From NCBI GenBank assembly GCA_018268395.1, contig JAFDWQ010000008.1, forward strand, positions 62,001-126,000: 64,000 nucleotides of DNA. Direction: 5' to 3'. The DNA comes from Armatimonadota bacterium (lineage in GTDB: Bacteria; Armatimonadota; Fimbriimonadia; Fimbriimonadales; Fimbriimonadaceae). Positions 4,044-63,943 of the stretch are shown in pieces (position 1 is the first letter of the stretch; every line of letters begins with the position of its first letter). Made by a program: the position numbers and the translations under genes. The notes under the pieces were generated by a model. The model was not told where the DNA came from and did no database searches. It was given only the letters and a program-made list of their open reading frames with translations.

Positions 4044-4130
4044 TTGCTGCCTCCAGACTCCTGACACCGTCTCATTCCACACGCCGCCGAACCTAGTCTG
4101 GAGGCTTCGTCCGCACCACCTCACACCGCG
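4044..4130. mobile_element. Partial copy of the inverted-repeat element (left end)
   Basis: The first 18 bases, TTGCTGCCTCCAGACTCC, are identical to the outer ends of the two full elements at 5208 and 6958. The inner repeat CTAGTCTGGAGGCTT follows at 4093. After about 4117 the sequence departs and repeats a piece of the left arm (accacctcacaccgcgc), so this is a truncated, internally rearranged copy with no right end. Together with the hairpin at 4166-4226 it fills most of the 359-bp gap 3934-4292. The remaining bases (3934-4043) show nothing recognisable. Confidence 0.8.
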
Positions 4131-4165
4131 CAGTTTCAAGGGCCGGTCTGACGCAACGCCCTTGC

Positions 4166-4226
4166 CCCGGTCTGCAACGGTCTCCGGTTCAGCCGGATGC
4201 ATCGTGGACACCGTTGCCAGACCGGG
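4166..4226. repeat. CCCGGTCTG hairpin, copy 1
   Basis: CCCGGTCTGCAACGG (4166-4180) pairs with CCGTTGCCAGACCGGG (4211-4226), a 15-bp stem with one bulged base. The 30-nt loop contains a smaller CCGG-ttcag-CCGG hairpin. A second copy occurs at 26618-26678. Both copies are associated with a member of the same small protein family (4293 and 26319). Confidence 0.7.
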
Positions 4227-4292
4227 CCGCCCGCCGGCCGACGGACGCAAGCGTCCGCGATTCTGGAAAAGCTGCGATAGAATGAAGGCACG

Positions 4293-4889
4293 ATGTCCGC
4301 CGTCCTCGCCGCCGCGCTCGTCCTGGCGCCGCAGAACCTACCGGGCGTCAAGTACCTGACTCTCGACTATTTCAACACGCCTCCTTACACGGTCGTCCTG
4401 ACAGGCGAAAAGTGGGACTTGCACGAATGGAGCGGCCTGACCCGGCAACAGTGCTTCTTCTACCGAAGGGCCAATTACGTTCAGATCAATTCGAATCCAA
4501 ATCAAACCGCACTCACGGTCACGATTGGCAGTGCGGCAATCAGTTTCATTAGCCCTAAAAAGGTCTACTGGCACCAAGACCTAGACTACTTCCCAGAGAC
4601 AGGAACGACGACGGACCTCAGCAGTTTTAGACGGATCTACCTCGACTGCGACCAGTTCCCCGACATCGCGGAAATGTCCGTTTATGATTCAGCAGGCAGA
4701 GGGCGCACCGTAAGTTGGTCCCTGCATCCGACTGGTATCTATTTTCCCTGCGGCGGCGGATCCGTAGACTGGAAGAAGGTGCGACACGTGCAATTCCGTC
4801 TGGACTTCAATGCCGTACCGAACCCCCTGTCCTTCAACATCGCTCGGATCTATGCCTTGCTCAAGGCGGTGCCGTTGGCACCGCCTTGA
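4293..4889 (+). CDS. Exported hypothetical protein, paralogue of 26319
   Basis: A 198-residue protein with a short hydrophobic start (MSAVLAAALVLAPQ) and a beta-rich body; I do not recognise a family. The first ~100 residues align with the truncated gene at 26319 (shared pattern: AVL-AALVL, KY-TLD, CLF/CFF, TLTVG). The second half looks like a carbohydrate-binding-type sandwich (RIYLDCDQFPDIAEMSVYDS), but this is only an impression. TAGAAT at 4278-4283 lies 9 nt before the ATG without a Shine-Dalgarno site, so the mRNA is probably near-leaderless. The base composition looks lower in GC than its neighbours. Confidence 0.7.
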   Translation: MSAVLAAALVLAPQNLPGVKYLTLDYFNTPPYTVVLTGEKWDLHEWSGLTRQQCFFYRRANYVQINSNPNQTALTVTIGSAAISFISPKKVYWHQDLDYFPETGTTTDLSSFRRIYLDCDQFPDIAEMSVYDSAGRGRTVSWSLHPTGIYFPCGGGSVDWKKVRHVQFRLDFNAVPNPLSFNIARIYALLKAVPLAPP

Positions 4890-4898
4890 GCTGAGGAC

Positions 4899-5174
4899 CT
4901 ACAGGGTCGGTAATACATTGGTTGAGCCGTTCGAAACGACCACTAACCATCTGCCGGTTCCTCCGTCGTTCCAGAAGAGGAACTCTCCCATGTGCAGACG
5001 GCTTACTGTCGCAAGCGATGTTCTGACGACGACGTTGACAGCCGCCAGGTTCACTCCAGGGTCGATGAAGTTGAAGACCCGGACTACGGTTCCCTGCGGA
5101 ACTTTCTCGACGTCCGTGTCCAAATTCAGAGTGTAGTTGGCGTTCGTACCGGAGTAGACGATGTTCTTCTCCAT
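4899..5174 (-). CDS. Small hypothetical protein (91 aa)
   Basis: A 91-residue beta-rich protein beginning MEKNIVYSGTNANYTL and containing VRVFNFIDPGVNLA and WNDGGTGRWLVVVSNGST, somewhat like tail-fibre or adhesin beta repeats. The reading frame continues upstream into the element at 5208, but only the part from the ATG at 5174 looks protein-like. GGTGG lies just before the start. It is convergent with the 4293 gene (9-bp gap), and its promoter would have to lie in or next to the inserted element. No function can be given. Confidence 0.55.
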   Translation of the reverse strand: MEKNIVYSGTNANYTLNLDTDVEKVPQGTVVRVFNFIDPGVNLAAVNVVVRTSLATVSRLHMGEFLFWNDGGTGRWLVVVSNGSTNVLPTL

Positions 5175-5207
5175 TCCACCAATCCAATCATCCCCGCTCG
5201 TGATGTT

Positions 5208-5455
5208 TTGCTGCCTCCAGACTCCGGACACCACCTCACACCGCGCGCCGCCGAATCTAGTCTGGAGGCTTCGTCCGCACCGGCTCGAAGTCCAGCCCCG
5301 TCGTTGACGAAAACGTCGGCTTTTGGGCCACCCCCTGGTCGTGCCGATTCCTGGCCCAGCGGGAGAGGAAGACCTCTGGGAGCCGTCCGACAAGCCTCCA
5401 GACTAGGACGGCTCCTTGTCGCCAGCGAGAGGACTTTGGAGTCTGGAGGCAGCAA
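5208..5455. mobile_element. MITE-like inverted-repeat element, copy 2 (complete)
   Basis: A 248-bp non-coding element bounded by a perfect 18-bp terminal inverted repeat: TTGCTGCCTCCAGACTCC at 5208-5225 and its complement at 5438-5455. A second nested pair, CTAGTCTGGAGGCTT and AAGCCTCCAGACTAG, lies about 50 bp inside each end, so the element is largely self-complementary. No transposase is encoded. It is nearly identical to 6958-7208 in the same orientation. No target-site duplication is obvious. Confidence 0.85.
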
Positions 5456-5489
5456 CCATTCGCGACGCGTCTGCGAAGCTTTTTGGTCG

Positions 5490-5630
5490 ATGTCGATGGA
5501 ACTGAAGATTCCGAGAGAGCAGCCCGGATGGCCAGGGATGAGTTGGGATGAGTTGGAGACCGTCATGAAGCCGCTGGTTGATGCTGAGAAGGCTTCCAGC
5601 GCCGGTGGAGCCGTCTTGTCGGCGAAGTAA
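5490..5630 (+). CDS. Small ORF upstream of the protease (46 aa)
   Basis: A 46-residue ORF starting MSMELKIPREQPGWPGM and ending SAGGAVLSAK. It begins 35 bp after the inverted-repeat element and stops 12 bp before the protease ATG at 5643, so the two could be co-transcribed. The amino-acid content (charged and amphipathic, with two Trp) is more protein-like than chance, but I know no homologue. It may be a small partner or a leader peptide. Confidence 0.4.
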   Translation: MSMELKIPREQPGWPGMSWDELETVMKPLVDAEKASSAGGAVLSAK

Positions 5631-5642
5631 CATGAGTCTGGA

Positions 5643-6938
5643 ATGAACCTGGTTCGTCTTGGTTTTGATTGGCGGCGTGGCCTTGGCCTGGTTGCCTTTG
5701 CCTTCCTCATCCATCCGTCTGCCTTGGCCCAGTCCGATTGGAAAGACGTGTATGAGGCAGTCCACCGTTCAACGGTCTCGGTTACTGCCGGGGACTCGGT
5801 CGGAACTGGCTTTGTTGTCTTCGACCGGCGCCATGTGGCGACCGCTTTGCATGTGATCGAAAAAGAGCTAGTGAAAGACTCCAACGCGCGGGTCTCCGTA
5901 CGCCTCGCCAATCAGAGAGAGGTAGCCGCCACCGCCGTTGCGGTTGACTCACGACGCGATGTTGCGATTCTTCGGTTTTCTGATGATCTCTCCTATCCGG
6001 CGATTCGATTGCAGGATGCCTTGCCCTCTCCAGGTGAAGCTGTGGCCGTCATAGGCAGTCCACTTGGATTGCTTGATCAGTCCATCTCGGATGGCATCGT
6101 GGGATCCATCCGGGCCGACCTCGATGGGCTGTCGATCCAATTCACCGCTCCGGTTAGCCCCGGCAGCTCCGGTAGTCCCCTACTTAGTAAGAAGGGGAGC
6201 GTACTTGGTCTTGTTATATCAAGGGTTCGAGGTGCTGACGAAGTTAATCTGGCCATTCCCGCCCTAACAATCCGTGGTGTGCTTAGCCGCGACTTCGTTT
6301 CGCTGGAAAATGGGAGCTTCTTGCCACCGGCCACGGCAACGACGCACTCCAAGAAGTGGACAAGCGAGCCCTTTGTGCCGCAAGGCATCATATTGGACGC
6401 TTTGACCTTCCTGCGATCTGTGCGCCCGTTTGCAAAACCTGGTGATGTGGCAACAGCGTCGAGGAAGTACGCCACGCTTGGGCTGCTCGAGGGCACTCGT
6501 CAATTTGTCGAAGGCGATGCTGTCGGCTATTACTGGTGGTTCCGAGGCGGCTTAGAGGGGCTGTTGGTTTTTACGACCCCTGACCTAAGAGCCTACATTA
6601 AGAAAGGGGGGTCGTTCTATGACCTTCCCAAAGAGACCCTTGCGAAGAGGTTTCGTCCGTCGAAAGACGACGTCATCGACCTTATCAATATCCCGATCCT
6701 AAAGAATGGGGCAACAATAGATCGGGTCGGCAGAGCTAAGTTCGACCAGTCCGAAAAGAAGGTAGTCGCCTATCTCCGTTCCAAGCTGGGCAAGCCAGAC
6801 CGAGTCCTTGCCGGCGACGAAGAAGAAAGCGGTTTGATTCTCTGGCGTTTGCGCTCGAAGGCCACGATCGTGTTCTACGACGGAACTCTCTGGTGGTGCG
6901 CCCCTTATTCTTCCCCCGAGAACAAGAATTGGCACTAG
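5643..6938 (+). CDS. Secreted trypsin-like serine protease
   Basis: A 431-residue protein with a signal peptide (cleavage near ALAQ-SDWK, residue 30). A chymotrypsin-fold domain of the HtrA/S1C type spans about residues 35-215. The catalytic triad is visible: His in VATALHV, Asp in SRRDVAIL and Ser in SPGSSGSPLL. No PDZ domain follows. Instead there are about 200 residues of unrecognised sequence containing YYWWFRGGLEG. The gene is bracketed by two direct copies of the inverted-repeat element (5208 and 6958) and appears less GC-rich than the surrounding chromosome, which suggests acquisition. Its target is unknown. Confidence 0.85.
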   Translation: MNLVRLGFDWRRGLGLVAFAFLIHPSALAQSDWKDVYEAVHRSTVSVTAGDSVGTGFVVFDRRHVATALHVIEKELVKDSNARVSVRLANQREVAATAVAVDSRRDVAILRFSDDLSYPAIRLQDALPSPGEAVAVIGSPLGLLDQSISDGIVGSIRADLDGLSIQFTAPVSPGSSGSPLLSKKGSVLGLVISRVRGADEVNLAIPALTIRGVLSRDFVSLENGSFLPPATATTHSKKWTSEPFVPQGIILDALTFLRSVRPFAKPGDVATASRKYATLGLLEGTRQFVEGDAVGYYWWFRGGLEGLLVFTTPDLRAYIKKGGSFYDLPKETLAKRFRPSKDDVIDLINIPILKNGATIDRVGRAKFDQSEKKVVAYLRSKLGKPDRVLAGDEEESGLILWRLRSKATIVFYDGTLWWCAPYSSPENKNWH

Positions 6939-6957
6939 CTGTTCCTTGACGTGCCGT

Positions 6958-7208
6958 TTGCTGCCTCCAGACTCCGGACACCACCTCACACCGCGCGCCG
7001 CCGAACCGAGTCTGGAGGCTTCGTCCGCACCGGCTCGAAGTCCAGCCCCGTCGTCGACGAAAACGTCGGCTTCTGGGCCACCGTGGCTCTGGTCGTGCCG
7101 GTTTCTGGCCAGGCGGGGAGAGGGAGACCCCTGGGAGCCGTCCGACAAGCCTCCAGACTAGGACGGCTCCTCGTCGTCAGGGCGAAGACTTTGGAGTCTG
7201 GGCAGCAA
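6958..7208. mobile_element. MITE-like inverted-repeat element, copy 3 (complete)
   Basis: A second full-length copy in the same orientation as 5208-5455. The left terminus TTGCTGCCTCCAGACTCC is intact. The right terminus has lost two bases (GGAGTCTGGGCAGCAA). The nested inner repeats are retained, one base changed at the left one (GAGTCTGG for TAGTCTGG). It begins 20 bp after the protease stop and ends directly against the C-terminal fragment of a PEP-CTERM gene. Confidence 0.85.
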
Positions 7209-7450: not shown

Positions 7451-7696
7451 AACTGTCATATCGCGCATACATTCCCTTTTCGACACCATTAGGGACTAGA
7501 TCGGCGAGGAAAGCATGCGGTTGTGACGCGGGTCACAGTTTTCTGATCGGACGCGACGCAAGATGAGTCAGCCCGGGAGGGCTAATGAACAATGCGAAAC
7601 GCAGAATCACGGACTCGTCGCGGACACCGTTACGGTTCCCTAGCCGAACAGATCCTGAAGTCCTCTTACGTCCAGAATCAAGGTCTCCCACACAGC

Positions 7697-8974
7697 ATGT
7701 CTACAAACAGGAAGAACATTAAGCAAAGCTACGCCTCCGCCCTCGATCGGCGCATTCTAACAACAAACATCGTCGTACCTTCGATATCGAAAGCATGTCG
7801 AGCCGCTACGCTTACGATTGCAGGAGTCATGGCATCAAGCGCGAGTGCTCAGATAGAGCAGTATTGGTATCGCGCTCCATTTGGCACGTCCGTCAACAGC
7901 AGCAACATGCCGTTGGCCGACTACTCGATGCCTGGTGCAGCGACGAACGGCAACAGCTTCTTCGCCATCAAGGGCGCCCCCAAGACCAACGGAAACGACC
8001 CACGTAGCTCGCACCTGTGGCAAAGGACCGGTGGCCCTGGCTCCGGAGGGTCTTGGAAGGACTGGGGCGATCGATATCCGAGTCCGGAGACCTTTTCGTT
8101 ACGAGTGCCCCTTGCGACCTACGCAGGCGTCAACGTCCGCGCGAAGACCAACCTTCCGAAGAACTGGTGGTACGACACGATGACCAACGCTCCGGGCATG
8201 TTCACTTGCTTTAGCGAAGTCGGCTTTCAAGGCCCCTCGAGTCGAATCCCTGGAACGACCAAGACGATCGCTCCTGTCATCAACTATAGTGGCTGGAGTT
8301 ATACCATCGACTATGCGGTCAAAGATTACAGCAATCTCTTCTTGCCTGCGGTCGAATTTCAGAACACACCCATCGGCGTTGACATTTATGACATGTGCGC
8401 CGCTGACAAATATACAGCATACGCTGTCGACCAGTACTACCAACTGTGGAGGATCGAAAACCCGTCCGGATTGTGGAACCTCAACAACAATAGCTATTCT
8501 CTTCTTGGTCAGGGGTTCGCATCCGTGTCCGACCAGCCCGGCGATAGGGACTGTTACGCAACCGACTGGAACGGCGAACTTTACGCCGTCTCCAAGACGT
8601 GGGGTCTGACAAACCTCGGTAGGCCGGCCGGGAAGCATATTTGGTCGAGCGTCACGGTATTTGACGGAGGAAAGCACTACGTCATAGCGGCTTGCGACAC
8701 TGGGGTGGGCCTGGGGAACGGAAAGGAGCAGTTGTACACGAAGGCTTATGATTGGGGACTCAACACCTGGCTGTCTTGGAAGGCGTTGGCGCCGCTTCCC
8801 GTTTACCTCGACAAGGCCAGCAATTCGCTGGTCAAACCCTACGTCATCGGCAGCCCCACGTTGGACGAGACCGGCAAGAAGATCGTCGTGGTCGATCAGC
8901 GGGGCACCTACTTCCGTGGGGGATGGAACTGGAACGAAACGACATGGTTATGGGAAAACCACGGTCGACCGTGA
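7697..8974 (+). CDS. Secreted hypothetical protein (425 aa)
   Basis: An exported protein of unknown function. A hydrophobic signal segment (AATLTIAGVMASSASAQ) is preceded by an unusually long N-region, so the start is uncertain: ATG 7697 gives a 52-residue signal, while ATG 7592, preceded by GGGAGGG, gives about 87 residues. The mature part is rich in Trp, Tyr, Gly and Asn, with repeating segments (YAVDQYYQLWRIENPSG, CYATDWNGELYAVSKTWG) resembling beta-propeller or lectin blades. No catalytic motif is recognised. It lies just downstream of the accessory patch and shares its less GC-rich look in the 5' part. Confidence 0.7.
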   Translation: MSTNRKNIKQSYASALDRRILTTNIVVPSISKACRAATLTIAGVMASSASAQIEQYWYRAPFGTSVNSSNMPLADYSMPGAATNGNSFFAIKGAPKTNGNDPRSSHLWQRTGGPGSGGSWKDWGDRYPSPETFSLRVPLATYAGVNVRAKTNLPKNWWYDTMTNAPGMFTCFSEVGFQGPSSRIPGTTKTIAPVINYSGWSYTIDYAVKDYSNLFLPAVEFQNTPIGVDIYDMCAADKYTAYAVDQYYQLWRIENPSGLWNLNNNSYSLLGQGFASVSDQPGDRDCYATDWNGELYAVSKTWGLTNLGRPAGKHIWSSVTVFDGGKHYVIAACDTGVGLGNGKEQLYTKAYDWGLNTWLSWKALAPLPVYLDKASNSLVKPYVIGSPTLDETGKKIVVVDQRGTYFRGGWNWNETTWLWENHGRP

Positions 8975-26318: not shown

Positions 26319-26780
26319 ATGACCGCCGTCCTCACCGCCGCCCTCGTGCTAGGACAGCAGCCGAAGTACGTAACCTTGGACGACTACCAGGTTGGCCCGT
26401 ACCAGAAGGCATTGACGATGGGCTCGGACTATCACCCGATATTTGGCCTTGACAAGCGGCACTGCCTCTTCGGGCAAAGACGTACGTGGTTCCAGGTGAA
26501 CGGCAACGAGGACGACCTTCCTCTGACGCTCACGGTTGGAAATGGGGAGCAGAAACTGTCGGCACCGGGTCAACTCACGTGGAACTACTCCGCCGAATAT
26601 GGAGGCTGGCTGGGTGGCCCGGTCTGGCAACGCGCCATGACAAGCTGCCCGCCCATGCCTGTCCCGTTGCAGACCGGGTCGACGACCAGACAGGGTCACC
26701 CGTCCAAACTGCTTCCTTGCCCCGGGCAGAAGCCGTTTCCGGCCCGCTCCGGCCCTTTTCAGGTTCAAAACGCGTTTTGA
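26319..26780 (+). pseudogene. Truncated paralogue of the 4293 gene
   Basis: A 153-codon frame. About the first 95 residues (MTAVLTAALVLGQQPKYV to the segment TWNYSAEYGG) align with the protein at 4293. Similarity stops near base 26605, where the CCCGGTCTG hairpin begins, and the remaining residues (PVPLQTGSTTRQG and on) are Pro/Gly/Arg-rich read-through. The gene was probably truncated by rearrangement at the hairpin. TAGATT 6 nt before the ATG is still intact, so it may be transcribed. Confidence 0.65.
26618..26678. repeat. CCCGGTCTG hairpin, copy 2
   Basis: CCCGGTCTGGCAACG (26618-26632) pairs with CGTTGCAGACCGGG (26665-26678), one base bulged, with a 32-nt loop. It is equivalent to 4166-4226 in inverted orientation, and it marks the exact place where the 26319 reading frame loses similarity to its paralogue. 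Confidence 0.7.
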
Positions 26781-26803
26781 GGGGTCTTTCCGGAAAGTTT
26801 CCT

Positions 26804-26908
26804 GTCATCGGCGGACCGTTCCCCGACATCGGCGGACCGTTCCCTGACATCGGCGGACCGTTCCCCGACATCGGCGGACCATTCGCTGACATCGGCGGAC
26901 GGTCCGCT
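26804..26908. repeat. Five tandem 21-bp repeats
   Basis: Five consecutive units of gacatcggcggaccgttcccc with few changes (start points 26804, 26825, 26846, 26867, 26888). The period of 21 keeps the frame open on both strands, but no start or protein context supports coding. It forms part of the 374-bp gene-free stretch 26781-27154. Confidence 0.8.
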
Positions 26909-26962
26909 GAAAAGGGGGCCCTCCGTTTCGAACGACGCGTCCCCAGGGTCCCACATCGGAGC

Positions 26963-27083
26963 GCGGGCTTCAGCCCGCATGGGGTCCGGGGACTTCAGTC
27001 CCCGAAAGGTGCGGACTCAAGTCCGCAAGGCACGCTTTGCTCTGAAGTCGCGCTCCGAGCACCGGATGCGGACCGAGGTCCGC
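26963..27083. repeat. Array of four 16-bp hairpins
   Basis: GCGGGC-TTCA-GCCCGC (26963-26978), GGGGAC-TTCA-GTCCCC (26988-27003), GCGGAC-TCAA-GTCCGC (27011-27026) and GCGGAC-CGAG-GTCCGC (27068-27083). Each has perfect 6-bp arms and a 4-base loop. It is the largest cluster of the dispersed hairpin family in the window and lies just upstream of the SPFH gene. Confidence 0.8.
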
Positions 27084-27154
27084 GCTCCATGGACCCCGTC
27101 CCCCGCCCTACCCGCGCAACCTGTCTTTGAACCCGGCGTATACTCAACGGCAAG

Positions 27155-28264
27155 ATGGGAATCTTCGACAAGATCCGCGGCGAGTTCATCGACATCATCG
27201 AGTGGACCGACGACTCCACGGACACGATGGTCTACCGCTTCGAGCGGCAAGGCAACGAGATCAAGAACGGCGCGAAGCTGACCGTGCGCGAGTCGCAGGT
27301 CGCGGTCTTCGTCGACGAGGGCCGCATCGCGGACGTGTTCCAGCCGGGCATGTACACGCTCGAGACCGAGAACCTCCCGATCCTCTCGACCCTCAAGGGC
27401 TGGAAGTACGGCTTCAACAGCCCGTTCAAGGCGGAGGTCTACTTCGTGAACACGAAGCGGTTCACCGACCAGAAGTGGGGCACGATGAACCCGATCATGA
27501 TGCGCGACGCCGACTTCGGCATGGTGCGAGTCCGGGCGTTCGGCACCTATTCCCTGCGCGTCAAAGACGCGGCCACGTTCCTGAAAGAGGTCGTCGGCAC
27601 GAACTGGGAGTTCACGGTCGACGACATCAACACCCAGCTCCGCAACTTCATCGTGAGCGACTTCGCCGAAGCGCTCGCCGAGACGAAGATCCCCGTCCTC
27701 GACCTTTACAGCAAGTACGACGACATGGGCGGCTTCCTGACGGGGCGCATCCAGCCGAAGTTCGAGGAACACGGCCTGGAGCTGCTGAACCTGATGATCG
27801 AGAACGTCTCGGTCCCGCCGGAGGTCGAGCAGGCGATCGACACGCGCAGCAAGATCGGCGCGATGGGCGGCGTGATGAACGAATACATGCAGATGCAGGC
27901 GGGCGAGGCGATGGTCAAGGGCGCCGAGAACCCGGGCGGCATGGGCGGGATCGGCGCGCAGATCGCGGCGGGCCAGATCATGGGGCAGATGGTGCAGAAC
28001 ATGGGCCAGCAACAGCAGCAGCAGGCTCCGGCCGGGGGCACGCCGCCTCCGATGCCTCAAGCCAAGCCGTACCACGTCGCCGTGAACGGTCAACAGCAAG
28101 GCCCGTTCGACCGGGCCGCGCTGCAGTCCATGGCCGCGAGCGGTCAGTTGACGCGCGACACGCTGGTCTGGACGGGCGGCATGGCCGAATGGACGAAAGC
28201 GGGCGACGTCGCCGACCTGAGCGACGTCTTCGGCAGCGTCCCGCCTCCGATGCCTTCGCAGTGA
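27155..28264 (+). CDS. SPFH-domain protein with C-terminal GYF_2 domain
   Basis: A 369-residue protein. An SPFH/virion-core-like domain covers about residues 25-230 (IIEWTDDSTDTMVYRFERQG near the start, VPPEVEQAIDTRSKIGAM at the end). A Met/Gln/Gly-rich linker follows (VQNMGQQQQQQAPAGG), and then a GYF_2 (DUF4339) domain from about residue 315 (YHVAVNGQQQGPFDRAALQ). Such proteins assemble on membranes as scaffolds. The partner zinc-ribbon gene follows at 28506. TATACT lies 10 nt before the ATG. Confidence 0.9.
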   Translation: MGIFDKIRGEFIDIIEWTDDSTDTMVYRFERQGNEIKNGAKLTVRESQVAVFVDEGRIADVFQPGMYTLETENLPILSTLKGWKYGFNSPFKAEVYFVNTKRFTDQKWGTMNPIMMRDADFGMVRVRAFGTYSLRVKDAATFLKEVVGTNWEFTVDDINTQLRNFIVSDFAEALAETKIPVLDLYSKYDDMGGFLTGRIQPKFEEHGLELLNLMIENVSVPPEVEQAIDTRSKIGAMGGVMNEYMQMQAGEAMVKGAENPGGMGGIGAQIAAGQIMGQMVQNMGQQQQQQAPAGGTPPPMPQAKPYHVAVNGQQQGPFDRAALQSMAASGQLTRDTLVWTGGMAEWTKAGDVADLSDVFGSVPPPMPSQ

Positions 28265-28277
28265 GGACGGCCGGAAC

Positions 28278-28343
28278 GCTCCACCCCCAACCCCCTCCTC
28301 ATGTTCGGGGCACGAACCATCCCCTGCACACGAGGAGGGGGCT
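28278..28343. repeat. 66-bp hairpin repeat, copy 1
   Basis: Begins ctccacccccaaccccctcctc and ends gaggagggggct; the arms CCCCCTCCTC and GAGGAGGGGG form a 10-bp stem. It is nearly identical to 28438-28503 and, inverted, to 47105-47166. Located 14 bp after the SPFH stop. Confidence 0.8.
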
Positions 28344-28386
28344 TGCCGATGACGGCGTCACTCACAGGGATACAATGCGCGTCGGA

Positions 28387-28509
28387 ATGACCTTCGGACT
28401 CTTCGGACAGAAGACGATGTCGACCGAAGCGTCGATCGCTCCACCCCCAACCCCCTCCTCCTATTCGGGGCACGGACCCTCCCCTGCAAACGAGGAGGGG
28501 GCTCGGTGA
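28387..28509 (+). CDS. Possible small ORF (40 aa) between the hairpin repeats
   Basis: A 40-codon frame (MTFGLFGQKTMSTEASIAPP and on) that starts 8 nt after TACAAT (28373-28378) and whose TGA overlaps the GTG start of the zinc-ribbon gene. The second half is translated hairpin repeat, which argues against a conserved protein. It may be a leader that couples translation to the next gene, or chance. Confidence 0.25.
   Translation: MTFGLFGQKTMSTEASIAPPPTPSSYSGHGPSPANEEGAR
28438..28503. repeat. 66-bp hairpin repeat, copy 2
   Basis: Direct repeat of 28278-28343 with a few changes, confined largely to the loop (ctattcggggcacggaccct). It ends 2 bp before the GTG start of the zinc-ribbon gene, so the hairpin would fold in its 5' leader and could mask the start. 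Confidence 0.8.
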
Positions 28510-29588
28510 GCCAAGTCCTGCGCTACCCGTGCTCCGAGTGCGGCGCGAAGCTGGAGTTCGCACCGGGGACGACGTCGCTGAAGTGCCCCTATTGCGGACA
28601 CCTCGAACAGATCTCGACCGAGGGTGCCGAGCCCGTACGCGAGCTGGACATCCAGGCGTTCCTCGACCGTGCCCACCTCGACGCCACGCTTGAGACGGAC
28701 CAAGTCCTGCACTGTAACCAATGCGCGGCCGAGTTCACTTTGCCCTCCACCCAAGAAGCGGCGCGATGCCCGTTCTGCGGGTCGAACGTGGTCGTGCCAG
28801 GGACGCCCGAGAAGCGCATTCCGCCGAACGCGGTCATGCCGTTCCAGATCGACCCGAAGACGGCGCGGAAGAAGTATCAAGACTGGGTGGGCAGCCGGTT
28901 CTGGGCTCCGAACGACCTCAAGAAGCTGGCCCTCGCGCATCACGGGCTCCAAGGCGTCTACATCCCCTACTGGACGTACGACGCCGAGACGTTCACGCGC
29001 TACACGGGCATGCGCGGCGAACACTATTGGGAGACGGAGACGTACACCGACTCCGACGGCAACACGCAGACGCGGCAGGTCATGCGCACGGCGTGGTATC
29101 CAGCGGCGGGCGCGGTGGACGTGCCGTTCGACGACGTCCTCGTGCTGGGCAGCACGCACCTGCCGCAGATGTACGCGCAGGCGATGACGACGTGGAAGCT
29201 CCTGGACATCCAGCCTTACCAACCTGCCTTCCTCTCCGGTTTCCAGGCGATGCGCTACGACCTCGATCTGGCGACGTGTTGGGACACGGCGATGTCGATG
29301 ATGGCGCCCGTGATCGACGGCGCGATCCGGTCGGACATCGGCGGCGACGAGCAACAGATCCACTCGAAGGACACCGAATACTCGAACGTGACGTTCAAAC
29401 ACCTGCTCCTTCCGATCTGGTCGGGTGCGTACCGTTACCGAGGCCGTTCGTGGCGGTTCCTTGTGAACGGTCAGACGGGCGAGGTTCGGGGCGAGGCTCC
29501 CGTGAGCTTCTGGAAGGTGCTGATCGCGGTGATCCTCGGTCTGATCGTGATCGGAACGATCGTCTACTTCGTGCAGAAGAACCGCTAG
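28506..29588 (+). CDS. Zinc-ribbon membrane protein paired with SPFH
   Basis: A 360-residue protein. Two zinc ribbons are at the N-terminus: CSECGAKLEF with CPYCGH (residues 9-31), and CNQCAAEF with CPFCGS (about 70-95). An alpha/beta region with many aromatic residues follows (YIPYWTYDAETFTRYTG), and a single C-terminal transmembrane helix is VLIAVILGLIVIGTIVYFV. SPFH plus such zinc-ribbon proteins recur as neighbours in many bacteria, probably forming a membrane scaffold. The start is GTG at 28506, immediately after the hairpin repeat. It overlaps the convergent regulator gene by 4 bp. Confidence 0.85.
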   Translation: MSQVLRYPCSECGAKLEFAPGTTSLKCPYCGHLEQISTEGAEPVRELDIQAFLDRAHLDATLETDQVLHCNQCAAEFTLPSTQEAARCPFCGSNVVVPGTPEKRIPPNAVMPFQIDPKTARKKYQDWVGSRFWAPNDLKKLALAHHGLQGVYIPYWTYDAETFTRYTGMRGEHYWETETYTDSDGNTQTRQVMRTAWYPAAGAVDVPFDDVLVLGSTHLPQMYAQAMTTWKLLDIQPYQPAFLSGFQAMRYDLDLATCWDTAMSMMAPVIDGAIRSDIGGDEQQIHSKDTEYSNVTFKHLLLPIWSGAYRYRGRSWRFLVNGQTGEVRGEAPVSFWKVLIAVILGLIVIGTIVYFVQKNR

Positions 29589-32500
29589 GCCGGCGCAGGT
29601 GCGAGCTGGTCGGACACTTGGAGCAAGAGCTGGTCCAAGGCGTCGTCGCTCCACCTCGTGCCGGGCGTCGCGGGCCGCTCTCCCATTCCGGTCGCCGACC
29701 GTTGCCAAGGGGCCAGCGACGTCTCGAACCCGGGTTCGATGATCGTCGCCGCTTCGCGGAGCCGCCCGGCCAGTTCGGACGCGCCGGTCTGCACCGCGGC
29801 GGCGCAGAAGACGGCCAGTCCGTTCGCGGTCAAGGTCGGTGACTCCAGTTCGCGTCCGATCCGGAACCCGCGCCACGCGTCGGCGACGGCGCTACCTACG
29901 TCGCCGGCCTTGACCGAGCACCAAGCGTGACAAATGCTGACGACGCCTTCGAGCGACGCCGCTCCGACGCGCTTGAACTCGCTTTCTGCCTCGTCGAGGA
30001 CTTCGACCGCTTTGTCCGGCCGGTCCAGGTCGAGGAACGTCTGGGACAAGTCGGCGAGGAGCTCGCACGAGAGGGCGTTCTGACCACGTTCGCGGCTCGA
30101 AGCCAAGGCTTCTTCGAACAGGGCTTGGCTCTTGGCGGGCTCGCCCAGATAGCGCCACAATCCGGCGAGGTTTCCAAGGGCGGCCATTCGGATCGCCGTC
30201 TGACGGCCTGGATCGTCACTGGCCGGTTCGTCCGTGCTCTCGAGGACGGCTTCCCAGCACGACCGCGCGCCCGCAACGTCGTGTGTCAGCAGACGGGCGT
30301 TGCCGAGGTTGTTCAGACAGGAGGCGAGGCTCAACGGCTCGTCGGCCGTTTCCAAGAGGGCCTTGGACTCCTCCAGAAGACGGATCGCGTCGTCGACATG
30401 GCCCGTCACAGCCGATAGGTGCCCGATCGAGTTGTATGCGATCGCCGTCTCCCGGGCCCAACCTTGGGGCGAAGGCATCGCCAGCAGCTTCCGGCCCCGG
30501 ACCCTCCATTCGACCGTGTGGCCCCTTGCGATCGTGAACGGCAGCAGCTTGCCGACCATGGTCAGGGTCGGGCCCGGACACTCGTCCAAGAGCAGGGCGG
30601 TGTCGGCCGCGAGCCGGAAGTTGTCGTGTTCGGCGTCACCCAAGGCCAAGGCTTCTTTGGCATGCCGTCCTTCGAACATCGTCCGGATCCGCTTGGCGAC
30701 TTCGCAGCACCATTCGCGGTGACGGGCCAAGACCGCTTCGTCTTCGCCCTCCGCTTTGCAGCGTTGCCAAGCGAACTCGCGGACGGGTTCTAGCATGCGG
30801 AACCGGATGCCGACCGGCGTGTCCTCGGTCAAGAGAAGCGAACTGCCGCACAGCGCCTCGACCGTCTGGAACGTGTTGCCCTCGCCGAAGACGGCTTCGA
30901 TGCCGTCCAGGCCCGCCCCTCCGCGGAAGCAACCCATCGAACGGAGCAGGGCTTGCTCTTGCGGGTCGAGCAGTTCGTAACTGGACTCCATGACCGCAGC
31001 GAGGGAGCGGTGCCGGTCAGGGACGTCCTTGCGGTTGCTCGTCAAGAAACGCATGTCCTCCAGTCGGACAAGCAGTTGCGCCGGAGACGACATCGTCATG
31101 TGGGCCGCAGCGAGTTCCAGCGCCAGCGGTAGCCCGTCGAGCCTGCGGCAGATCTGGACGACAGCCTCCGAGTTGGACGACGACAGCTCGAAGTCCGGTC
31201 TTTGGGCTTGGGTACGGTCGACGAACAGCTTGACGCTCGGAGATTCCGCCGTCTCGGCGGGCCGTGCCCCCGGTTCCGGCACGGGGAGAGGTTGGAGCGA
31301 GAGGACACGCTCGACTTCGAGGAAGGACGTCCGACGGGACGTCACCAAGATCCGTAGGTTCGGGCACGCGACGAGGAGGTCTCGGACCGCTTCGGAGGCG
31401 CCGTCGACCAGCCGTTCAAACCCGTCGAGGATCAGAAGGGAGGGTGGCCCGGAAAGAAAGCCGACGAGCGCGCTACGGTCCTCTTCCCGCGTGGTCCGAG
31501 GCAAGTCGAGGGCCTCGCAGACCGACGACAGGAACCACTCGGCTCCACGGACTTCGGTCAGGGACACGAAGTGCGTCCGCCCTTCGTATGCGGCGGCTAA
31601 GGCGTGCCCGACCCTCAGGGCCAGAGCGCTCTTCCCTGTCCCGCCCACGCCCGTCACGGTCCAGAGACGGGGCGATTCGTCGTCCGTGGGGTCGAGGGCG
31701 TCTTTGAGGCGGCCGGTCTCGTCCTTTCGGCCGAAGAACCTCTTGAGCAGCGGTGGTAAAGCCGGCGATCGGGACGGTTCCACCTGACCGAAGGGTCGTG
31801 CCGTATCTCCCTTGAGTCCTGCGGCCGGCCCGGACCTTCTTGAAAGCGCCGCGGCCAGTTCCCGTGAATCTGGCGCTTCGGGAACAGCCTGGAGCGCGGA
31901 GACCGCGGCCTGCCCCGGTTTTTCGCCCCAAGCGTCGTCCAAGACCCGCTCTAGGGTTTCGAACTGCTTGATGGCTTCCGACGAAAGGCCGGAGGCGCCA
32001 TAGGCCCGGATCGCGGCGACATGGATGTCTTCTCGAAGCGGAAAGAGCGTCAGCCCCTTTTTGCAGAGGGCGACGGCGTCCCGGGCGTGGTCTTCCGCCA
32101 CCATCGCGTCGACGGCGTCGCAGAGGGCCGCTGCGTAGGCCTCTTCCAGAGCCAATTGGTGTGGAAGCGCCCATTCGAACGTGACCTGGGCGAGGGCGTC
32201 TCCACGGATCCAATGAAGGGCTTCCGTCAACAGCGGGATCTTCTCCAGGTTCGAACGGCAGCGGTCGGCCAGGCCCGTCAATCGCTGGAACTCGGCCAGA
32301 TCGGACGTGACCGTGTCTTTGCACAGCCAGACGTGAAGGCGGTCCGACCCGACCACCGCGCCCTCGCGGCCCGGAGGATCAAGTTGCCGTCGAAGGGACG
32401 AGAGCGCCGTCCGCAGGTTCTGCCGGGATTCTTCTTGGCCGCTTTCCGGCCACACCGCGTCGGCGAGTTCGTCACGGGTGACAGGGCGGGAGTCGTGGAC

Positions 32501-61753: not shown

Positions 61754-62395
61754 TTAAAGTCCGCTGCCGTAGGACGACCCCAGCCTCTGCTTGTACCGAT
61801 CCTCCATCTGATCAAACGTCAAGAATCCGTCCTCCGGACCATAATACAACCCTTTCAGACCTAACTCCTCCAATTTCTTTCTATCTCGAACTAAGCCATA
61901 CGCCATTGTCTTCCAAGTACCCTGCACATACACTTCTGGAGGCATAGCTGCCGACCGGTCCAAAAGCCATGCCGCTCTTAGCACATTGAGCAGTACTGCG
62001 TACTTACCTCCATCCGACGTGTGCCAATTGTCAAGCATGATCTGTACCGTCCGTCCATTGGACGTCCTCATTGCTTGAAGTGGGATAGCCTTCGTCATGT
62101 CGGGCCCAGAACGCGACACGACGATCGGGCCCTCGGGTATGGCCAATCGCATTCTTGGCCATACGACGGCCTTATAAATCTCGCAGAACCTTTCTCGCGA
62201 CAATTCGCTCGTAACTATTTCCTCAGGTGTCGCACTATCGTATAGCGTCTCCGGGTCGTTGTGGACGAGCGCCCACATAGAAGCCCTGGCTTCCGCATCG
62301 ACCGGACTCCAGAGACTTAAGAAGACCCCTACCGCGACGAGAGCCAACGTTATGGTCGTCACGATGACCGGCCTGTGCCGTCGAAGCCAACGCAC
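61754..62395 (-). CDS. Membrane-anchored hypothetical protein, operon gene 4
   Basis: A protein of about 213 residues with one N-terminal transmembrane segment (VIVTTITLALVAVGVFLSLW) and a soluble domain (NDPETLYDSATPEEIVTSEL, RTVQIMLDNWHTSDGGKYAV). No family recognised. The start is uncertain: GTG 62395, 4 bp after the upstream stop, is used; ATG 62470 would overlap the Cys-rich gene by 71 bp. It ends the four-gene operon. The 150-bp gap to lysS (61604-61753) shows nothing. Confidence 0.6.
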   Translation of the reverse strand: MRWLRRHRPVIVTTITLALVAVGVFLSLWSPVDAEARASMWALVHNDPETLYDSATPEEIVTSELSRERFCEIYKAVVWPRMRLAIPEGPIVVSRSGPDMTKAIPLQAMRTSNGRTVQIMLDNWHTSDGGKYAVLLNVLRAAWLLDRSAAMPPEVYVQGTWKTMAYGLVRDRKKLEELGLKGLYYGPEDGFLTFDQMEDRYKQRLGSSYGSGL

Positions 62396-62399
62396 TCCT

Positions 62400-62720
62400 T
62401 TAAACACTACACTGGACCTGTGGAGGAGACCCCGTGCAGTCACCAGCGCTTTCTGACCTTGTAGCATCATAGCTCGTGTACGGGTTACAGGGTGCTTGGG
62501 CACTTGTGCAGTGGTACAAGACCTCCGTGCATTGACAGCAGAAATCACCTTGCTTCTGGCACGACGACGTCGTGCCGACGGTGCTCGTCCTAGAGCAGCT
62601 TCCCGAGCACTGAAGATTGTTGCAATTATCGCCAAAGGCGCTCCAATTACAGCCAGCGTACCCAATGTAAGCCCCGCCTACAATTAATGCAACGCTAAGA
62701 ATGGTTCTACATTTACACAT
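62400..62720 (-). CDS. Cysteine-rich exported protein, operon gene 3
   Basis: A 106-residue protein with a signal or anchor segment (RTILSVALIVGGAYIGYAG), then about 80 residues with a dozen cysteines (CNNLQCSGSCSRT, CQKQGDFCCQC, HCTSAQAPC) and many Ser/Thr/Gly. Such a composition implies a disulfide-stabilised extracellular peptide. No family recognised. AAGGA lies 9-10 nt before the ATG at 62720. It follows a pseudopilin and a thioredoxin-like gene. Confidence 0.6.
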   Translation of the reverse strand: MCKCRTILSVALIVGGAYIGYAGCNWSAFGDNCNNLQCSGSCSRTSTVGTTSSCQKQGDFCCQCTEVLYHCTSAQAPCNPYTSYDATRSESAGDCTGSPPQVQCSV

Positions 62721-62758
62721 GACATTTGTCCTTTTACGTCGCTCCACACTATTACTAC

Positions 62759-63361
62759 TCAATCCTCCCAAAACTTATACTGATAGAACATTCCTCGTTT
62801 GACTCGGAAAGCGATTGATCCTCCCAGGTGCATCCCAATGGCTCGTTGCATGCTGAAACCGTTTGCCGGATAACTGAGCTGATGGTTAGGGTCGAGGAAG
62901 ACTATTGACGCGTCTCCCATCTTTTGAACATGAGCAATCCAGAATGCATCGTATTCTGTGCCAGCGCCTCTCTCGTTGTGGATCGGTGCCCACATCTGCC
63001 AATACGTTGCGTGCATAGAACTCCAAGGGCCCTTCCCATGACAATTCCACCAGTCAACGATGCCGTTTCTCTCCGCTTGCTTCCCAAGGATCGCAGTATA
63101 GGCAAGTCCAGGAAACCCCATCTCTGAACTCGGTGCGGGTGCGTCACTACCGTTCCATTCTTGCCGGTACAAAGTGAGCGCTGTGTAAATTTGTCGGAAA
63201 TTTGACACGCAGCGAGCTTGTTGCCCCCGATCGCGAATCGTTACAAGGGCCGGATACGTCAGAGCCACTAAAATCATCAGTATCGAGACGACGACAAGCA
63301 CTTCGACGACCGTGACACCACTGTCTCTGCAAATTTTCAGGACTGAAGTGGTTTTATTCAT
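62759..63361 (-). CDS. Prepilin-type N-terminal protein, operon gene 2
   Basis: A 200-residue protein with the prepilin signal SGVTVVEVLVVVSILMILVA (Val replaces the usual Phe after Gly; Glu+5 is retained). The following helix has RCVSNFRQIYTALTLYRQEW, and the C-terminal part (GDASIVFLDPNHQLSY, AIGMHLGGSIAFRV) resembles DUF1559/H-X9-DG-type pilin-like proteins. The ATG overlaps the upstream stop by 8 bp. Confidence 0.75.
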   Translation of the reverse strand: MNKTTSVLKICRDSGVTVVEVLVVVSILMILVALTYPALVTIRDRGQQARCVSNFRQIYTALTLYRQEWNGSDAPAPSSEMGFPGLAYTAILGKQAERNGIVDWWNCHGKGPWSSMHATYWQMWAPIHNERGAGTEYDAFWIAHVQKMGDASIVFLDPNHQLSYPANGFSMQRAIGMHLGGSIAFRVKRGMFYQYKFWED

Positions 63362-63863
63362 AGCTTACACCTGGAGGATACTCATCAGGATCGGATGCAG
63401 CCCAAATTAGCCTTCCGGCTCTCACGACGTATGACCTTGGTCGAAAGCACATGTTCAACTGTGTAGCAAGTCGGCCTTCGGGGTCAGACACGCACCATAT
63501 ACTCGGTTCAGAGCCAAAGCTCTTCTTTAGCTCCGCGGGAGGAGCCTGGCCAACGAGTACCACCGCATAGCTGGTCGTTTGGAGGCGGTGAAGATCGAAT
63601 GCCCTCAATGAGCAGCTGTTGCATTCCCCAAGAAGGATGAGGAGAAGATCTCTATCTTGCGGGATAGGCTTTCCGTTCAAGTCGACAGAGTTCCGGAAGA
63701 CTACGTCCCCCAGTTGCGGGTCGTTCTCCGTCAGGAACTCGAGGGACTTGCTGGAGGGCCGACTGAGCCAGCCCTGGCCCCTCATCGAAACAGTCAAGGA
63801 CAAGGCTCCAAGCATGAAGAGCGCCGATGCTTCGAGGAACGAGACTTGGAATCGTCGTTTCAC
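63354..63863 (-). CDS. Membrane-anchored thioredoxin-like protein, operon gene 1
   Basis: A 169-residue protein with an N-terminal transmembrane helix (ASALFMLGALSLTVSM) and a thioredoxin-like domain: DRDLLLILLGECNSCSLRAF holds a CxxC (C-N-S-C) after the central strand, and CFRPRSYVVRAGRLIW matches the C-terminal part of the fold with Pro before the strand. Probable extracytoplasmic thiol oxidoreductase or reductase. The start is uncertain: GTG 63863 with GGTGG about 12 nt upstream and TACAGT at 63888-63893. Confidence 0.65.
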   Translation of the reverse strand: MKRRFQVSFLEASALFMLGALSLTVSMRGQGWLSRPSSKSLEFLTENDPQLGDVVFRNSVDLNGKPIPQDRDLLLILLGECNSCSLRAFDLHRLQTTSYAVVLVGQAPPAELKKSFGSEPSIWCVSDPEGRLATQLNMCFRPRSYVVRAGRLIWAASDPDEYPPGVSYE

Positions 63864-63943
63864 AGCTAATCGGTGACCACCAAGACTACTGTATCGCAAA
63901 ATCACCCCCCCCCCAAGCACATCAAGTAAAAATACGAGGCCAC

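Follow-up and report, generated by a model that had tools for sequence, protein, structure and literature searches.

REPIN-like elements with a core-deleted RAYT gene inside bracket a secreted protease gene in an Armatimonadota genome

Introduction

REPINs are pairs of inverted palindromes dispersed in bacterial genomes, and the RAYT genes associated with them are flanked by the same palindromes, with RAYT and repeat changing together between species (PMC3116915, PMC2817692). The origin of REPINs has been stated as unknown, derivation from an IS200-like element being offered as one possibility only (PMC3116915). The REPs on which the E. coli enzyme TnpAREP acts follow a conserved motif, GTAG being one example (Corneloup et al. 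2021, PMC8266576). As described in the portions of Di Nocera et al. (2013, PMC3733652) cited here, TIRtrons (or TIRYTs) combine a RAYT-like gene with long, partly self-complementary terminal inverted repeats, which sometimes overlap the gene end, lack GTAG and also occur singly and as dimers; Armatimonadetes are absent from the main text of that paper. Finally, the PATEs of Haloquadratum are short, transposase-free elements, some of which arose by core deletion of IS200/IS605-type elements. They have palindromes near their ends, no target duplication, no terminal inverted repeats and archaeal IS605-type parents (PMC3119063).

Here we analyzed 64,000 nucleotides (the window) from the genome of an Armatimonadota bacterium of the family Fimbriimonadaceae, corresponding to C8:62001-126000 of 3.72 Mb in 15 contigs (C1 to C15). 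Positions without a contig name are those of the window. An earlier note on this DNA had described MITE-like elements on either side of a protease gene. Our analysis assigns these elements to the REPIN/TIRtron kind, with the fossil of a RAYT gene inside.

Results

The sequence TTGCTGCCTCCAGACTCC was found at four mismatch-free sites in the window (4044+, 5208+, 5438-, 6958+), with a mean of 0.06 sites expected from a shuffle control in which up to three mismatches were allowed. The features around these sites are as follows.

4044-4227, + strand: REP1-REP2 composite, with an RE-type hairpin (4044-4111), a linker and the palindrome REP2 (~4166-4227)
4293-4889, + strand: secreted protein, member of a paralogous family specific to the lineage (12 genome matches including itself)
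4902-5204, - strand: C-terminal part of a member of a second paralogous family, cut short at the border with copy A
5208-5455, - strand (that of the RAYT remnant): copy A, an internally deleted RAYT element (REPIN-like), delimited by exact terminal inverted repeats and by alignment to the RAYT locus
5208-5270, + strand: right-end hairpin (RE) of copy A, overlapping the end of the RAYT reading frame
5287-5358, - strand: copy A remnant of the 5' coding end of the RAYT gene, first ~26 codons
5392-5455, - strand: left-end hairpin (LE) of copy A
5490-5630, + strand: 46-aa ORF without a family match, which may not be a gene
5643-6938, + strand: secreted trypsin-like protease (HtrA-type domain), 431 aa, between copies A and B
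6958-7208, - strand: copy B, another RAYT element with an internal deletion (identity to copy A, 91%)

Two ~250-bp elements with 18-bp terminal inverted repeats (TIRs) and a nested inner pair had been described here in direct orientation, and all of this was seen, save that copy B lacks 2 bp of its outer LE arm (the right outer arm). In copy A the 18-bp TIRs are perfect, the inner inverted pair lies at 5257-5271/5392-5406, the RE hairpin has an 11-bp stem (GCCTCCAGACT...AGTCTGGAGGC) with a loop of ~35 nt, and the head remnant meets the last ~9 RAYT codons at ~5286/5287. Copy B starts 20 bp past the stop codon of the protease gene. Identity between the two copies stops 1 base past either end, and thus the unit is discrete and its boundaries are exact. 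As single strands, both copies fold far better than shuffled sequences (z of -7.3 for A and -3.5 for B). In the window, Rfam matched only a tRNA and no other known RNA family.

When up to two mismatches are allowed, the end pattern occurs at 31 sites genome-wide, compared to 0 for the reversed control. A search with the 248-bp element gave 27 matches, which fall into three kinds: near full-length pairs, composites of a hairpin and a second palindrome, and fragments. The site at 4044, previously taken for a truncated third copy, is instead REP1 joined to REP2, with the spacing fixed as in eight others: REP2, which has 16 sites in the genome, lies 119-124 bp from the hairpin in nine hairpins, the one at 4044 included. 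This copy is a second composite, made from the same hairpin plus another palindrome. The gapped hairpin pattern had no exact match among viral contigs or in a collection of genomes from 84,980 species, from which the present genome was excluded.

The copies are grouped in several unrelated islands, with 18 of 26 elements having a neighbour within 3.5 kb (1.2 expected) and neighbours inside clusters having a common orientation. Segmental duplication or recombination, rather than transposition, could have produced such clusters as well as copy B from copy A, which are each other's closest relatives. However, similarity does not continue beyond the element ends, nor is the intervening DNA repeated, making this origin unlikely.

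The earlier note had also called for a search for an autonomous relative with the same ends, and a transposase-coding relative was found. The gene at C1:1385-1945 codes for a 186-aa RAYT protein with a Y1_Tnp match (C1:1520-1798) and lies between inverted hairpins, two facing one way and two the other. The protein scores 80.8 bits against NCBIfam NF047646 (REP-associated tyrosine transposase; cut-off 80) and carries the motifs HVH (residues 63-65) and YVHQNP (136-141), of which H63, H65, Y136, N140 and P141 are conserved without exception when seven relatives are aligned with it. A PDB search with the single sequence found no match, but a profile built from the family alignment matched E. coli TnpAREP (4er8; E 2.8e-9); the HUH motif and the Tyr...Asn-Pro region align, although the two proteins are distant in sequence. 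A search of plasmids yielded only distant transposases (<35%). Thus, the absence of a transposase, as first reported, holds between and beside the copies in the window but not for the genome, where the cognate gene is on contig C1.

Three more Y1_Tnp genes are present in this genome (C12:50353-50886, C3:411920-412465 and C1:617052), each lying between inverted copies of a palindrome of its own (of CCACAGGCGTGTGCG, TGGCCGGGGTGATGTCTCGTGCACCCCGGTCCG and GGGCTTCAGCCCG type), together with a weaker fifth candidate at C3:308294.

Over its full length, copy A aligns to C1:1287-1994 minus 453 bp. When reverse-complemented, both A and B follow the C1 locus from the left hairpin through the 5' leader and first codons, then jump 453 bp to the last codons and the right hairpin, a gap that removes the catalytic core of the RAYT. 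An alignment of six copies, made against the C1 locus after removing the 453 bp, yielded one junction, in the simplest reading GACTTCG/AGTCGG, in A, B, C5:142505, C12:48936, C1:985897 and C8:47994, the last of which has had its left end replaced. The deletion is divisible by three, and the C5, C12 and C1 copies retain a head-tail reading frame (LARRRHDQNRGGPDADVFLTTACLDLESVRRKPPD in the C5 copy). Furthermore, the C5 and C12 remnants were independently recovered in a RAYT protein search (residues 1-33/35, 50-61% identity, the 61% being over 33 residues; best E 1.3e-8). Since six copies carry the same deletion junction, one founder deletion followed by spread is the simplest account. Because the left end of the C1 RAYT is clearly less similar to the copies than its right end (75% vs 96%), a sister gene that has since been lost may have been the true parent.

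Classical MITEs of a DDE insertion sequence would likewise be of this size, have TIRs and lack coding capacity. Yet the interior of the elements corresponds to a HUH/Y1 RAYT gene from which an internal segment was cleanly deleted, their ends are hairpins, and five of the six elements have no flanking repeat longer than 3 bp: there is none at A, B or the RAYT locus, one of 3 bp only at C5 and C1, and one of 6 bp (ACCAAG) at C12 that lies off the exact ends. Neither a fixed-length target duplication nor a DDE parent was found, and the junction in common with the RAYT gene rules out DDE parentage. A conventional MITE is therefore an extremely unlikely description of elements whose parent is a Y1/HUH RAYT and which show no consistent target duplication; the missing duplication fits a Y1 enzyme.

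RAYT relatives of 41-52% identity are common among the 60 related genomes searched, and a cross-species search for a close relative returned one locus, in Armatimonadetes bacterium 55-13 (47%). Inverted hairpins flank the RAYT genes in seven relatives (G001, G007, G010, G013, G014, G017 and G021, with G014 the weakest case). These are mostly of the form ATGCCTC...GAGGCTA and ~30 nt long, versus ~62 nt in this genome, and their foot is mostly ATG or TAG, compared to TNGCT or TGGAT here. Across eight RAYT hairpins, 8 of 11 stem pairs have changed on both sides (0 of 500 shuffles) and all 88 stem cells are paired; the hairpins were picked for complementarity, which inflates the paired percentage but leaves the double changes standing. 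Such double changes are the expected mark of palindromes that are kept as hairpins while diverging together with their RAYT.

One of these relatives, G013, has 28 hairpin sites. At C1:1715792-1716194 it carries a 403-bp unit in which two terminal hairpins enclose a RAYT that lacks residues ~61-123. This core deletion arose independently, and one copy of it was seen. In the same genome, hairpin pairs 157 bp apart repeat every ~1,107 bp beside the RAYT (C1:1373474-1376484), which suggests a tandem array.

We now turn to the DNA between the copies. The protease was correctly recognized as secreted and trypsin-like, with a Trypsin_2 match (E 5.6e-28), a signal-peptide-like N-terminus and a GSSGSP motif. 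The enclosed DNA, described as GC-poor, is indeed so (56.1% versus a window mean of 63.1%), but GC content is equally low outside both copies (55.9% at 4232-5207 and 55.7% at 7592-8974), and hence the copies lie within a low-GC, lineage-specific stretch of ~4.2-9.0 kb. In the three same-genus genomes no empty site can be defined, because synteny is broken between 2453 and 9626: the left neighbour gene and SHMT are on different contigs, or only one of them is fully matched, and no ORF from between them is found near either gene. The earlier note would have been refuted by copies only in fixed positions relative to conserved genes and by a protease region of the same composition in all relatives. 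This is not what we see: the element is absent from all 60 relatives searched, and matches to the protease there are only ~26-42% identical, most of them covering the protease domain.

Could A and B be the ends of a larger composite unit responsible for the arrival of the protease, or able to delete it, as previously suggested? Their direct orientation, their nearly full length, the lineage-specific low-GC content between them and the lack of a close match to the protease in the 60 relatives would be expected of such a unit. It would not, however, account for the low GC past both copies; moreover, no second protease copy exists in the genome, no target duplication was found at the outer ends of A-protease-B, other clusters enclose other DNA, and copy A breaks a neighbouring gene fragment. 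With no empty site definable either, we consider a composite unit very unlikely and the bracketing of the protease most likely incidental.

Convergent pairs of a secreted (partly PEP-CTERM-like) and a surface/tail-like protein occur in the window (4293-5204) and elsewhere in this genome (C1:1-900, C12:49276-52987, C14:13107-15512 and 26717-32088); on C14, the arrangement resembles a cassette array, in which shorter C-terminal copies, each in turn with the partner, come after a long gene of 1,087 aa. Several truncated C-terminal fragments of the tail-like gene stop at or close to REP/RAYT-type repeats that belong to different families (window 5204/5208, C1:~60, C12:~50300, C14:~14640), as though breakpoints were marked by these repeats. 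Elsewhere in the window, the region of lowest GC (~52%; 61754-63920) has a pilin-like (62759-63361), a short Cys-rich and another secreted-looking ORF, and two adjacent imperfect palindromes with CCCCCTCCTC/GAGGAGGGGG arms at 28291-28506 are perhaps another repeat family.

Discussion

Our combined findings make it highly probable that these elements originated from a core-deleted RAYT gene, spread from a founder, depend on a RAYT acting in trans and bracket the protease incidentally. A RAYT gene ancestral to the copies, bounded by inverted hairpins, lost 453 bp of its catalytic core, and the remaining hairpin-head-tail-hairpin unit then spread as a discrete ~250-bp element, as one junction common to six places with different flanks shows. 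These two steps we count as established, as we do derivation from a RAYT, the single junction, the exact borders, the dispersal and the covariation, all at the level of sequence.

For IS608, single-strand cut-and-paste without target duplication is established, whereas for REPINs it is proposed. By analogy with IS608 and TnpAREP, we infer that the hairpins, folded in single-stranded DNA, are the targets of the RAYT at C1:1385-1945 or of one closely related to it, whose tyrosine would cut next to them and paste the unit elsewhere without target duplication. Mobile non-autonomous elements with a partner able to act in trans had been envisaged before, and the C1 RAYT relative, having the same ends, is a candidate for this partner. 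A lagging-strand bias is known for IS608; it is unsupported here, as local GC skew at 15 loci gave no sign of such an orientation bias, being weak, and as orientation changes along individual contigs. Copies would build up in islands of dispensable, lineage-specific genes, and within such an island two insertions probably fell on either side of the protease, which would then not be cargo.

How do these elements stand among the known systems? As in REPIN/RAYT pairs, inverted palindrome pairs are dispersed in one genome and the same palindromes flank a RAYT gene, which codes for a predicted Y1/HUH transposase with HxH and the catalytic Tyr; palindrome and RAYT have co-evolved, as seen from the hairpins flanking the relatives' genes and from their covariation. 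Unlike in REPIN/RAYT pairs, there is no GTAG/GTGG-type tag at the hairpin foot, the loop is ~35 nt, copy number is low (31 sites of ~62 nt, compared to repeats of 20-40 nt usually numbering >100) and the spacer is the RAYT gene's own head and tail. The elements thus seem to work like a REPIN/RAYT pair, but fall outside the strict GTAG REP class in tag and hairpin length. As set out in the cited portions of the TIRtron paper, a RAYT-like gene with long, non-GTAG inverted repeats, some of them self-complementary, that form a family describes a TIRtron, and such a gene and repeats are found here; the core-deleted copies, in contrast, are not mentioned for TIRtrons in those portions (PMC3733652). 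With PATEs these elements have in common core deletion, near-terminal palindromes and the lack of a target duplication, but they differ in having inverted ends (18-bp perfect TIRs in copy A) and a RAYT as parent. No report of REPINs with RAYT fragments inside was found in the open literature searched, which is not proof of absence.

A REPIN spacer is recognisable here as a core-deleted RAYT, in six places with one junction, and an apparently intact RAYT is present in the same genome. This provides rare direct evidence on how bacterial REPIN repeats can arise. It also makes the C1 gene available for biochemistry as a RAYT with untagged hairpins. We propose, with the probabilities for and against evenly balanced, that the elements are transitional REPINs, some with an open ~35-codon head-tail fusion, that this step occurred at least twice independently in the bacterial family, and that core deletion is a general REPIN route. 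The question of REPIN origin is now directly testable by sequence across a whole bacterial order and, if the proposal is true, core deletion of RAYT genes would be a general route to REPINs.
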